Shown here piece by piece: positions 4,418 through 26,125 of a DNA stretch of 37,665 nt (positions are counted from its first letter, which is position 1; each line of letters opens with the position of its first letter). This DNA is from Curvibacter sp. (GTDB taxonomy: Bacteria; Pseudomonadota; Gammaproteobacteria; Burkholderiales; Burkholderiaceae_C). A model generated the notes under the pieces. The model searched no databases, was not told the DNA's origin, and saw only the letters and a program-made list of their open reading frames with translations. A program made the position numbers and the translations under genes. Where the stretch lies: contig JAHRYV010000007.1 in the NCBI GenBank assembly GCA_020621965.1, forward strand, positions 1-37,665, read 5' to 3'.

Positions 4418-6355
4418 TCAGTTCTCCAGCCTCAGCATCACGTAGGCCTGTTGATGGAAGCGGAACCTGGGCAGGAAGTCCTGATAGGGCTCGCCCAGGT
4501 TCTGCACCACCGCGGACAGTTCGGCGCGGTGCCCTCCCAGGCGCAGGGCCTTGGCCAGCCGCACGTCCGTGCGGCTGGTGGCCGGGGCCGCCTGGTCCAG
4601 GCCCGGGAAATGCGTGGCGTCGGCCTCGGAATACACGAGGCTGAAGTCCAGGCCCGCTGGCAGGTGCTGCATGAACATCAGGCTCTGGCTGCGGTAGGCG
4701 CCGACCGTCCCGTTGCCGACCGATTGCGAGCTGTTGAGCGCCGACTGGCCATAGATCACCCGGCCCTCGCGCCAGGGCTGCCACTTGAGTTGGTACTCGT
4801 AGCCGCGGATGTCGAAATCCTCCTGATTGGTGTAGTCGAAGACCGCCGTGTTCAGGAAGCCGCTGCCGGGCAGGTCATACGCCTGCCGCTTGACCTGCCC
4901 GCGCACGCGCTCCTCGAACACGCGCAGGTCCAGGCTCAGCGCCCGGCCCGGCAGCTCGGCCAGGTAGCCGATTTCCTGCGTCCGCACCTTTTCCGCCGCC
5001 ACGTTGCCGCGCGCCACATCGGTGGAGTCGGCCAGGACACCCCCGAGGTAATAACGGACATTGGCGTGCTTCTCGTAGTTGCTCGGCGGGCGGACCCCCT
5101 CGGTGACGCCGTAGCGCAGCGTGTGCCCCTCGACCAGGCGCCAGTTCAGCATGGCGCGCGGCGACAGGTGCTCGCCGGCGAGGCTGTTGCGCTCGAACAG
5201 GGCACCGGCGTTGAGCAGCAGGTCGGGGTGCAGGCGCCACTCGGCGTTGCCGAACAGGCGGGAAAAGTCCGTCACGAAACTCGCGCCGGTGTCGTAGACC
5301 GGGCGCGAGACGATGGTTTCGCGCCGCAGTTCTCCGCCCCAGACCAGACGCAGCGTCCTGGCAACGCGCAGCGTGTGCTGCAGCGAGAGGTTCTGGTTGC
5401 TCGCCCGACCGCCGGAATCGATGAGCACCGACGGCGCCGGCGCGTAGGTGAAATGATCCTGGATGACCTCTTCCGTATGGGAGACCTGCAAGGCGAGGTC
5501 CTGGTCAGCGCCCAGATTGCGATGCCAGTCGAGTTGCAGGAACGAGGTGTCGATCTGGCGCGTGCGCACGTTGTTGCCGATGTCGCCGGCGAAACCGACG
5601 CCGGCGTCGATGACACTCTGACCGGTGCGCAGTTCGACCATGTCGCGGCTGCTGGCGCGCAGATCGGCCCGCAGGTTGGCGCGCTGCACCCGCGCCGGCC
5701 CGCTGGCCCCGCGCAGGCCGTTGTCGGCGCGACCATCGGCCGTGAAGCGGAAACGGGCGTCGTCATCGCCCCAGCCCAGACGCACCAGGCCGTCCTGGAT
5801 GCCGTTGTCGCCGCCGGCCACCTGCACTTGCGCGCCCTGGGTGTCGACCGGATCGCGCGTCACGATGTTGATCGTGCCCAGAAAGGCCCGGGCGCCGTAG
5901 GACGCCGAATTCGACCCCCGGTGCACCTCGATGCGTTCGATGTCCTCCAGCGCGACGGTCTGCAGGCCCGGGCCGGTACTGCCCTGCATGTAGGCGGAGT
6001 AGACCGAGCGGCCGTCCACCATGACCTGCATGTGGTTGGAGTAGTCGCTCAGGCTGGTGTGGTAGCTGCCCTGCGGCGTATTGCTCTCGAAGGAATTGCT
6101 GACGCGAAAACCCGGCACCAGGCGCAGCAGGTCGGCGACATCGCGCGCACCGCTCATGCGGATCATCTCGCGGTCGATGAGGGTGACCGCCCCCGGCGTT
6201 TCGTCCAGGCGCTGCGGCAGGCGCGAGACGGACAATACGACGGGCACATCGTCCAGGTAGTCCTTCTCGGACACGGTCTCGGGTGATTGGCCGGCGGCCG
6301 TGCCGGCCAGTCCGAACAGGACGGGCAGCCAGAGGATGGGGGGCGTGCGCTTCAT
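4418..6355 (-). CDS. TonB-dependent outer-membrane receptor
   Basis: 645 residues. The signal peptide is MKRTPPILWLPVLFGLAG with a cleavage region near AAGQS. A TonB-box-like stretch (DVPVVLSVSRL, about 36-46) precedes the plug domain: GAVTLIDREMIRMSGARDV, LLRLVPGFRV, VMVDGRSVYS, IERIEVHRGSNSASYG. The rest is a beta-barrel with alternating aromatic strands. The chain ends QQAYVMLRLEN; this family usually ends in an aromatic residue, so the terminal Asn is slightly atypical. There is no extra N-terminal signalling domain, so it does not belong to the FecA-type class that signals through an anti-sigma factor. It is the first gene of the receptor/binding-protein/kinase operon. Similarity is mainly to vitamin B12/siderophore-type receptors, but the substrate cannot be read from sequence. 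Confidence 0.92.
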   Translation of the reverse strand: MKRTPPILWLPVLFGLAGTAAGQSPETVSEKDYLDDVPVVLSVSRLPQRLDETPGAVTLIDREMIRMSGARDVADLLRLVPGFRVSNSFESNTPQGSYHTSLSDYSNHMQVMVDGRSVYSAYMQGSTGPGLQTVALEDIERIEVHRGSNSASYGARAFLGTINIVTRDPVDTQGAQVQVAGGDNGIQDGLVRLGWGDDDARFRFTADGRADNGLRGASGPARVQRANLRADLRASSRDMVELRTGQSVIDAGVGFAGDIGNNVRTRQIDTSFLQLDWHRNLGADQDLALQVSHTEEVIQDHFTYAPAPSVLIDSGGRASNQNLSLQHTLRVARTLRLVWGGELRRETIVSRPVYDTGASFVTDFSRLFGNAEWRLHPDLLLNAGALFERNSLAGEHLSPRAMLNWRLVEGHTLRYGVTEGVRPPSNYEKHANVRYYLGGVLADSTDVARGNVAAEKVRTQEIGYLAELPGRALSLDLRVFEERVRGQVKRQAYDLPGSGFLNTAVFDYTNQEDFDIRGYEYQLKWQPWREGRVIYGQSALNSSQSVGNGTVGAYRSQSLMFMQHLPAGLDFSLVYSEADATHFPGLDQAAPATSRTDVRLAKALRLGGHRAELSAVVQNLGEPYQDFLPRFRFHQQAYVMLRLEN

Positions 6356-6411
6356 GGGCAGAGGGGTCGGGGCTTGGGTTCTTATTTGGGTCCCTGGCCT
6401 GATTCTGCCCT

Positions 6412-6814
6412 GGGTTGGTGTTCAGAACTCGCGTCATGCCCGTTCGAGTCCAAAACGGGATGATTTGACCGCCAACACCTCGCAGCGTGTGCTGTAGCAC
6501 ACGCAAGGGGTTTGGCGGGCAAAGGGCCCGCCGGCACATCCGGTCGGATGTGCCCGCCGGTCCGGCCTTATTGGCCCGCAAACGCGACCGCGTTTGCTCG
6601 GGTTCGAACCCGGAGGGGCGTGGTTTTGCGGGCCAAGCACGGCCGGTCGGCCGTGCCGGCCCATAGGGCGCCATGCGAACGCATCCGCTCAGCGGATGCG
6701 TGACGCCGCGTTGCAAAACCAGGCAAGCCGTCCAGGCTTGCCTTGGGTTTTGCGCCTTCCGGCTCATCCCGCAAAAGCCACGCCGCGCACGGCGCGAGTT
6801 TTGAACACCATCCC
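6412..6814. repeat. MITE-like palindromic element filled with non-identical hairpins
   Basis: The 494-base gap between the receptor gene and moaA has no credible gene and is dominated by this element. Its ends are inverted copies: 6412-6433 and the complement of 6793-6814 match at 20 of 22 positions. Hairpins inside have different sequences. They are 6485-6504 (GCGTGTGC/GCACACGC), 6533-6554 (GGCACATCCG/CGGATGTGCC), 6578-6597 (GCAAACGCG/CGCGTTTGC), 6599-6612 (perfect CGGGTTCGAACCCG), 6637-6656 (GCACGGCCG/CGGCCGTGC), 6680-6700 (CGCATCCGCT/AGCGGATGCG), 6721-6743 (AGGCAAGCC/GGCTTGCCT) and 6781-6794. Longer stems enclose some: TTGGCCCGCAAA 6571-6582 with 6625-6636, and GCAAAACC 6713-6720 with 6746-6753. 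No transposase is present. A non-autonomous mobile element or a structured RNA/DNA element are both possible. Confidence 0.75.
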
Positions 6815-6829
6815 TGCCAGGGGTATCCC
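6801..6829 (+). promoter_or_regulatory. Candidate promoter of the moaA-mobA-moeA operon
   Basis: TTGAAC (6801-6806), 17 bases, then TATCCC (6824-6829). The -35 box lies inside the right terminal inverted repeat of the hairpin element, so the element may supply part of this promoter. The mirror copy at the left end (CTGAAC on the minus strand) points at the receptor gene. Confidence 0.45.
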
Positions 6830-6849
6830 GGCTGGGTCACAATAAGGGC

Positions 6850-8001
6850 ATGTCCGAACGTGTCATCCCCCTGGTCGACCAGCGCATTCCGACGCTGAGC
6901 GCTCCCGCGGCCGCCTTCGACCCGGCCACCCGCATCGCCGCCACCGGCCTGCTGGCCGACCGTCTGGGCCGCCCCCTGCGCGACCTGCGCATCAGCGTCA
7001 CCGACCGCTGCAATTTCCGCTGCAGCTACTGCATGCCCAAGGAAGTCTTCGACAAGGACTACGCCTACCTGCCGCACAGCGCCCTGCTGAGCTTCGAGGA
7101 AATCACCCGCCTGGCCCGCCTCTTTGCCGCCCATGGCGTGCGCAAGATCCGCCTGACCGGCGGCGAGCCGCTGCTGCGCAAGAACATCGAGTCGCTGATC
7201 GAGCAACTGTCGACCCTGCGCACCGTCGATGGCGAGCCGCTGGACCTGACGCTGACCACCAATGGGGCCCTGCTGGCACGCAAGGCCCAGGCCCTCAAGG
7301 CCGCGGGCCTGCAGCGCGTGACCGTCAGCCTGGATGGCCTGGACGACGCCATCTTCCGCCGCATGAACGACGTCGATTTCCCGGTGGCCGAGGTGCTGGA
7401 GGGCATCCAGGCGGCCAAGGACGCGGGGCTGGGGCCGATCAAGATCAACATGGTGGTCAAGCGTGGCACCAACGAGCAGCAGATCCTGCCCATGGCGCGC
7501 CACTTCCGCGGCTCCGGCATGGTGCTGCGCTTCATCGAGTACATGGACGTGGGCGCCACCAACGGCTGGTGCATGGACGAGGTGCTGCCCTCGGCCGAGG
7601 TCGTCAAGCTGATCCACGCCGAACTGCCGCTGGTGCAGCTCGAACCCAGCGCCCCGGGCGAGACCGCAGAGCGCTGGGGCTACGCGGATGCCAACGGTCG
7701 GCATGACCAGGCGGCCGGCGAGATCGGCGTCATCAGCAGCGTGACCCACGCCTTCTGCGGCGACTGCAACCGCGCCCGCCTCTCCACCGAAGGCCGGCTC
7801 TATTTGTGCCTGTTCGCCACCCAGGGTCACGACCTGCGCTCGCTCATCCGCAGCGGCGCCAGCGACACCGACATCGAGTCGGCCCTGGGCCACATCTGGG
7901 GCGCGCGCGACGACCGCTACTCCGAACAACGCGGCGCCCAGCCGCCCGACAGTGGCCACAGCCCGCAGCGCCGCGTCGAGATGAGCTACATCGGGGGGTA
8001 G
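6850..8001 (+). CDS. moaA: GTP 3',8-cyclase, molybdenum cofactor biosynthesis
   Basis: 383 residues. A radical SAM enzyme that converts GTP to 3',8-cyclo-7,8-dihydro-GTP, the first step of molybdopterin synthesis. The N-terminal [4Fe-4S] motif is C54-x3-C58-x2-C61 in [12 protein letters not shown], followed by [12 protein letters not shown]. The second cluster ligands are C303, C306 and C320 in [14 protein letters not shown] and LYLCL. The chain ends MSYIGG, carrying the di-glycine tail needed for activity. It is somewhat longer than E. coli MoaA because of an N-terminal extension of about 30 residues. AAGGG lies very close to the ATG, so initiation may be weak. It leads a Moco operon with mobA and moeA; moaB/C/D/E are not in the window. 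Confidence 0.97.
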
Positions 8002-25987: not shown

Positions 25988-26035
25988 GGAACGAGAAAAT
26001 GCAGCGCGGCGTAGCGAGCGGGCTCAGGGCAAGGC

Positions 26036-26096
26036 GCGGGTGTCAGGCCACCGGAATGGACTGAACGTCCATGAGGATGGCCTGAACGGGACCCGC
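26036..26096 (-). other. Three-tier stem-loop between ybaB and recR
   Basis: Three nested helices: GCGGGT (26036-26041) with ACCCGC (26091-26096); CAGGCCA (26044-26050) with TGGCCTG (26078-26084); ATGGAC (26056-26061) with GTCCAT (26067-26072) closing a 5-base loop. The middle internal loop is symmetric, five bases on each side. No T tract follows. It could set recR mRNA level or translation within the operon. Confidence 0.45.
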
Positions 26097-26125
26097 AACG
26101 CCGCCATGTGCCCGCGCAGTAGCCG

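Follow-up and report, generated by a model that had tools for sequence, protein, structure and literature searches.

The window, that is the whole stretch of 37,665 nucleotides analysed here, carries a palindromic intergenic region upstream of moaA, next to a gene of the TonB-dependent receptor type (Table 1). The best NCBIfam match of the latter was the TOL_0244 family TonB-dependent receptor (182 bits, below cut-off). The palindromic region was real and corresponded to an insertion of 401 bp (6413-6813). No transposase-sized open reading frame confined to it was present among the frames of at least 80 amino acids.

Table 1. Coordinates of the element upstream of moaA, its parts and the neighbouring genes.
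Feature	Position	Strand	Remarks
Gene of TonB-dependent receptor type	4418..6355	-	23 NCBIfam matches, all below cut-off
Left CTG, probable target-site duplication	6410..6412	.	Sequence compared with the empty sites of G015, G009, G018 and G013
Whole element, 401 bp, long form of the subfamily	6413..6813	+	Ends 36 bp upstream of the moaA start
Outer stem, left arm, terminal inverted repeat (TIR) type GGGATGGTGTTCAAAACTC	6413..6442	+	Pairs with 6784-6813
Arm A region, long form: stem GTTCGAGTC.../GGTTCGAAC, motif GGGATGATTTGACCGCCAA/TTTGGCGGGCAAA, terminal hairpin 6485-6504	6442..6609	+	Homologous to A3 columns 31-135
Extra hairpin cassette 1: CCGGTCGG-apex hairpin 6524-6563, GGCC hairpin, GCAAACGCG hairpin 6578-6597	6531..6598	+	Missing from short-form copies
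Arm B: GGCGTGGTTTTGCGGG paired with CCCGCAAAAGCCACGCC	6617..6784	+	Homologous to A3 columns 145-248
Extra hairpin cassette 2: CCGGTCGG-apex hairpin 6637-6656, GCATCCGCT hairpin 6679-6701	6634..6707	+	Found in L093 and L117
Core hairpin GCGTTGCAAA-hairpin(6721-6743)-TTTTGCGCCTT	6708..6760	+	Core scan; R1 match 6680-6786, 38 bits (R1 has the window among its 52 rows)
Outer stem, right arm, matching TIR	6784..6813	-	Pairs with the left arm
Right CTG, probable target-site duplication	6814..6816	.	Same empty sites; imperfect if a 4-bp duplication is expected
moaA (GTP 3',8-cyclase)	6850..8001	+	TIGR02666, 376 bits, cut-off 284

The outer ends (6412-6433 against the complement of 6793-6814) were identical at 20 of 22 positions when read directly from the sequence, as the initial annotation had stated, and a repeat search stretched these arms to 31 nt with 84% identity (6412-6442 / 6784-6814). 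The block said to recur in mirror position 21-22 bases inside each end was recovered as CGGGATGA at 6456-6463 (22 bases inside the left end) and TCATCCCG at 6764-6771 (21 bases inside the right end). At least seven hairpins, as had been counted before, were seen at 6485-6504, 6524-6563, 6578-6597, 6600-6613 (this one by eye), 6637-6656, 6679-6701 and 6721-6743, and the second and fifth of them have the CCGGTCGG apex in common. The description of the region as one large imperfect palindrome is right for the pairing ends but not for the shape, which is an outer stem plus two long arms. This shape, with a tiny hairpin between the arms, was given by RNAalifold on alignment A3, which holds 18 short copies of the window's subfamily and excludes the window itself; the CGGGATGA and TCATCCCG blocks are not mutually paired in the short-copy consensus. 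Outward-facing promoter-like boxes had also been claimed for the element. No outward sigma-70 promoter was found in it, and the sole promoter-like site (6866 to 6839, minus strand) lies outside. Cassette 1 was missing from all 18 short copies of A3; it was found with base changes in three copies of G023 (L093, L095 and L117) and partially in L092, a copy truncated at the end of its contig. Where cassette 2 stands in the long form, the short copies have about eight bases (CGATCCGC). In the core of the window copy the consensus-final TTGC reads TTCC.

The element upstream of moaA is a mobile insertion, and among the sampled genomes it exists only in that of the window. The moaA gene was found in all 26 genomes of the genus, the window's own included, and BLAST found no element upstream of it in any of 26 loci from the 25 other genomes, the upstream sequence compared being 900 bases for 24 loci and 180 and 322 bases for the other two. 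The site reads straight through in genomes G015, G009, G018 and G013, and CTG stands on both sides of the window's element. The target-site duplication of the IS5 family is CTAG (YTAR). A perfect CTAG duplication was observed in two sister copies of G015, a near-closed genome of four contigs: copy L060 has clean empty sites in G018 and G013, and copy L066 has one in G013, while in the window copy only CTG is common to both flanks. More copies were present in the window's own genome (86% complete, 82 contigs), in which the core model R1 described below gave 12 matches at E<=1e-4, and the C74 copy was matched by DNA similarity in 17 of 60 genomes, the own one counted. The multiple copies, the empty sites, the target duplications and the ends of IS5-family type bear out the non-autonomous mobile element that the initial annotation had offered as its first option. 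In addition, assembly breaks fall inside such elements in contigs of G010 (L100-L106, L283, L288-L290) and in L022 and L117, so short-read genomes probably undercount the copies.

Copies that are alike inside differ in their ends, although the two ends of each copy match. In a set of 24 copies from the window's subfamily (18 short and six longer, two of these of intermediate length), TIR identity was 0.92 within a copy versus 0.57 between copies, and the observed mean was reached by 0 of 5000 permutations; L091 and L094 were dropped for their decayed ends, L064 was not caught by the anchors, and a one-base register shift at the right end of L093 depresses the within-copy mean. Interiors were at least 93% identical in 124 of the 276 pairs (over the shorter one, gaps not counted), and in 28 of these 124 the TIR identity was 0.5 or less. 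In the G015 pair L063/L065, for example, the interiors are 95% identical and the TIRs 40%. The long form with both cassettes likewise has the window's TIR here and GGAAGGTCTGAACAAG in G023 (L093, L117).

Three IS5-family insertion sequences were revealed in the genus, namely a 1160-bp one in G002 with TIR GGGAAGGTCTGAACAA (L272/L312), one in G011 with TIR GGGATGGTCTGCAAAAGTC (L314) and one in G006 with TIR GGGCCTGTTAACAC (L269), the last TIR type being also that of the Ideonella core element L164. Their transposases scored above the NCBIfam cut-off, and their flanks are CTAG or CTAA. The TIR type of the window was found in four of the 26 genomes, its own included, and was seen in G000, G010 and G015. 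It stands also on two contig ends of G013, which read as the two ends of one insertion sequence whose interior is missing from the assembly; an intact autonomous insertion sequence with this exact TIR was not recovered. Since ends of these kinds are found on IS5-family insertion sequences of the same genus, the window element, as far as sequence can tell, is an IS5-type MITE, short, without a transposase gene and in several dispersed copies. Its ends match over about 30 bp, whereas those of the autonomous insertion sequences do so over roughly 15-20 bp as judged by eye.

From the ends and the duplications, IS5-type transposases are the best candidates for the mover, which would act in trans. 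The IS5 transposase of G002 has no match in the window's own genome and is present in nine of the 26 genomes, and PF01609 has one match in the own genome. PF01609 was found in four of the eight copy-holding genomes tested; G009, G010, G015 and G017 hold copies and gave no PF01609 match at E<=1e-5. Its absence from half of these eight genomes indicates that the transposase donors are often absent or lost, and mobilisation in these four would be past or by other enzymes.

One part of the element is distributed far more widely, a GGCGTTGCAAA-stem-TTTGCGCCTTGC hairpin on one arm, here called the core. The core hairpin is found again, joined to unrelated arms, in Beta-, Gamma-, Alpha- and Deltaproteobacteria. 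When one genome per species was scanned with the pattern GCGTTGCAAAN{18,48}TTGCGCCTTGC, at least 118 stretches were obtained (L118-L235). Among the 80 titles listed, most were Burkholderiales, together with Methylobacillus, Alteromonas, Lujinxingia (Deltaproteobacteria in the NCBI taxonomy) and MAGs labelled Desulfuromonas and Bacteroidetes; the Kosakonia one (L189) looked like a chance match within coding sequence. A flanking inverted repeat of at least 14/16 surrounded 93 of 112 cores versus 11 of the 266 control points taken within these loci (all 118; L189 left out, and 10 of 122 cores too near an end), and 62 of 73 cores among the first 80 loci. The flanking arms and TIRs vary from group to group among the 80 listed loci, as judged from rows with ends near the core, since a wrong outer pair had been chosen in many of the 118 rows of the end finder. 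The model R1 was built from alignment A1 with 52 rows (51 scan loci and the window), from which L181, L189, L190, L193 (coding-looking or odd), L154 and near-duplicates were left out; it has two-sided changes at 11 of 20 pairs, and its invariant columns are partly forced by the search pattern. At E<=1e-4 it matched 44 of 299 Pseudomonadota genomes, other classes included, and the counts of R1 matches are lower bounds with at most 13 candidates scored per genome.

Plasmids carry the core too. A two-armed element with a long outer stem and a fold z of -15.0 was identified on a Martelella plasmid (Alphaproteobacteria), and an Acidovorax element was matched in seven plasmid records and no phage record. 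A gammaproteobacterial core had no match among E. coli records, and the window element had none in the plasmid collection. No annotated feature lay under the listed plasmid matches (7, 4 and 4 records), according to a gene table which is itself incomplete. On a Cupriavidus plasmid (pRK1-5, L356 2501-2671), some 170 bp next to an IS481 transposase gene form a core element that has no annotation and shows CTAG/CTTAG at the ends; an empty site for the Cupriavidus plasmid copy was searched for and none was found.

In some members the core occupies both arms (by eye in L366, and by eye in G243, where the two are mutually inverted), and in L357 R1 found an inverted arm at 14.2 bits. Local alignment of arm A with the inverted arm B, against 500 shuffles, scored 42 versus 22.2 (sd 4.3, best shuffle 43) in L357 and 44 versus 21.9 (sd 4.2, best shuffle 44) in L068. 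The same relation was unsupported in L021 (24 versus a shuffle mean of 23.4) and in the window (49 versus 33.6, sd 6.2, best shuffle 55). A two-core origin is thus likely for some members, and is not demonstrable in the window copy. Some R1 matches, among them those after groEL, lack an evident TIR, so that the core may serve some further purpose, independent of transposition. In L127 (1954-2058), L340 and L363 (about 230-336), the core hairpin comes right after a frame with a GroEL-like GGMGDMGM tail (by eye), and such a post-groEL core is perhaps a domesticated copy. The window itself contains a second core hairpin at 26020-26113 on the minus strand (GGCGTTGCGGGTCCC...CCCGCGCCTTGCCCTG, R1 21.8 bits, E 4.9e-5) with no obvious TIR, adjoining recR- and ybaB-like genes (by eye).

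The bulged bases of the core, and the two inverted core arms of L366 (by eye) and L357, recall REP/REPIN elements, which are moved by RAYT transposases through single-strand insertion and leave no target-site duplication. The element could then be moved by a single-strand (Y1, RAYT-type) transposase which recognises the core hairpin, the TIRs being incidental. PF01797 has four matches in the window's own genome and was found in 29 of 44 core-bearing versus 111 of 255 other genomes (Fisher p = 0.008, kinship not corrected); this modest enrichment makes another mobiliser possible. This reading is nevertheless improbable, since the perfect 4-bp CTAG duplications in two copies and the matched TIRs of IS5-family type argue for a DDE enzyme, and 15 of the 44 core-bearing genomes have no PF01797 match, including G128 and G190 with 8 and 12 core matches. 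Y1/RAYT was not supported as a required partner. An integron attC hairpin is framed by an R' box GTTRRRY and an R'' box RYYYAAC, and no such pair was visible by eye in alignment A1.

The predicted fold of the element is very stable. For 6405-6820 the z value was -13.0 as DNA and -14.4 (+) and -12.4 (-) as RNA, and 0 of 100 dinucleotide shuffles folded as well in each case. In A3, 98.8% of cells pair, and two-sided changes were found at 27 of 108 pairs, 20 of the 27 sitting in the outer stem; the pair counts were above those of all 500 shuffles and of every slid register, the last comparison being favoured by a structure derived from A3 itself. A second subfamily (A2, TIR GAGCCTGTTCACGG; 12 of 16 copies, the long-form and partial ones left out) had two-sided changes at 30 of 112 pairs. 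Against the findings that the initial annotation had named as refuting, the element is not single-copy, its structure is conserved and compensatory changes are present. In the outer stem, two-sided cells stood against one-sided or unpaired ones as 88 to 20 in A3 and 27 to 12 in A2, whereas they did not prevail in the inner helices (28 to 29 in A3, 27 to 53 in A2). G-T pairs were not discriminating, with 18/504 (A3) and 14/348 (A2) cells in the outer stem and 49/1439 (A3) and 85/992 (A2) in the inner helices. The outer changes of A2 are isolated pairs inside one TIR type, so not all of them are wholesale end swaps. The changes in the outer stem speak for copying from arm to arm, or for the exchange of whole ends, at the level of DNA, and selection alone could also produce the pattern. 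The initial annotation had proposed a structure under selection and not simple copying; the structure is indeed kept with many compensatory changes, but the pattern of the outer stem suggests copying or exchange.

The stable folds on both RNA strands and the compensatory changes in the inner arms would also suit a structured non-coding RNA, or a cis-acting element of the moaA mRNA, with helices kept by selection on the transcript, and the seemingly conserved place of the core hairpin after groEL in L127, L340 and L363 agrees with that. Two Burkholderia sRNAs gave full-length matches below threshold, ncS037 with 22.1 bits (112 needed, E 0.2) and again with 15.8 bits (E 3.8), and ncS011 with 14.1 bits (48 needed, E 0.33). 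An RNA of this kind is very improbable, because the insertion at moaA is missing from the other genomes of the genus, no Rfam family matched at the gathering score, and orientation to the neighbouring genes shows no bias: the 30 of 81 cores with resolved neighbours include 4 co-oriented with both neighbours, 6 anti-oriented to both, 10 convergent and 10 divergent ones, as counted with a crude ORF caller on the 80 listed loci, which placed 39 other cores within one of its mechanical ORF calls and 12 at edges. At the gathering score, Rfam 15 gave only the SRP RNA in the window, outside the element; seven matches within 6300-6900 were all far below it (best E 0.2), and none lay over the element in copies L021-L024. 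The structured RNA that had been listed among the first options thus found no functional-RNA evidence. The sub-threshold ncS037 and ncS011 matches lie at 6505-6647 (-), 6609-6750 (+) and 6627-6804 (-) of the window, and these two sRNAs may themselves be palindromes of a similar sort.

A cruciform-forming host site, such as a transcription terminator or a signal for replication or the nucleoid, which the host would keep for its own benefit and which chance would have duplicated, is hardly credible: the z value of the DNA fold, two terminator-like sites in 6356-6870 where 0.7 are expected (one of them the stem 6721-6743) and the intergenic position at moaA are in line with it, but the precise insertions with CTAG duplication, the TIRs of IS5-family type and the presence/absence polymorphism within the genus are not.

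The explanation held with good confidence is that of a non-autonomous IS5-type element, the core of which re-equips itself with the ends of various DDE insertion sequences and copies arm onto arm. Whichever DDE (IS5-like) transposase recognises the current ends would cut and paste the element in trans. One arm may then change, either through mutation or because it recombines with an end of some resident insertion sequence, and fold-back copying, either through template switching in the hairpin or through repair of an extruded hairpin, would carry the change to the other arm. A matched pair would thereby be kept, and the core could pass between transposases. The core probably promotes folding or binds some factor. 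The copying step is what we infer from the outer stem, and strong selection or independent replacement of the ends could give the same pattern. A wider version appears doubtful: a transposase-agnostic element, the core of which would be ancient, spread over Proteobacteria and perhaps beyond, swapping its TIRs among the DDE insertion sequences of its hosts, with fold-back copying (Y-shaped single-strand or cruciform) renewing both ends and the core acting as the copying engine.

As IS5-family MITEs are generally defined, the element resembles them in being short, without an evident transposase gene, with matched TIRs of IS5 kind, CTAG duplications and dispersed copies. It is unlike them in that similar interiors are common to copies with unrelated TIRs, and in that the interior, folded into two long arms, contains a core hairpin which recurs in several classes. 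The usual view takes a MITE for an internally deleted copy of one insertion sequence and binds it to a single transposase. What sets the element apart is that its ends differ between copies around a hairpin core that is widely shared; otherwise it belongs to the known IS5-type MITE kind. REP/REPIN elements are similar in the conserved hairpin with bulges and, for some elements here, in the inverted hairpin pair; they differ from the element here, which is TIR-bounded with a CTAG duplication and whose core occurs in genomes in which the Y1 gene was not found. TIMEs, according to the available part of PMC4133298, are Tn3-derived miniature elements, mostly of 262 bp, with Tn3-family ends, duplications of 5-6 bp and usually a single copy. 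As far as that part goes, they share with the element a non-autonomous nature, a stable predicted fold, proposed movement in trans and the making of mosaic elements, whereas a common core with exchanged ends is not described for TIMEs there. The rhizobial RIME elements, which PMC2573895 names, are likewise intergenic repeats, the likeness being one of description and not of sequence. No description of the family was found in searches of an open-licence PMC library (PMC9012009, PMC4133298 and PMC2573895, each available in part), which counts as weak evidence.

If true, a core which outlives its ends and is re-equipped would represent a different way to persist, and the spread of a single small palindrome to many bacterial classes would then have an explanation. 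It would also provide a natural system for arm-to-arm correction in palindromes. Since the core seems un-annotated in many genomes, it may confuse the annotation of repeats, sRNAs and terminators.

Some further sequences related to the ends or the core were observed. In the window's own genome, L360 and L361/L362 (C70, C33, C13) show more TIR types around the core, CTAGATCCGCTGAACCACC and GGGTCTGCCCACACTA. About 50 bp before moaA, a GCGC(G/C)(T/G)TTTG(A/G)ACACCCC-like sequence which resembles the right TIR was noticed by eye in L242, L244, L246, L247 and L249, and a simple pattern for such a sequence flagged L242, L244, L249 and also L253; in these five related genomes it may be an old remnant or chance. 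Palindromes of about 45-54 bp, consisting of a facing pair of TIRs plus a few GC bases and lacking the core, occur in G010 (L283, L284, L285), G012 (L286) and G023 (L287), and they may be deletion products or precursors of the element.
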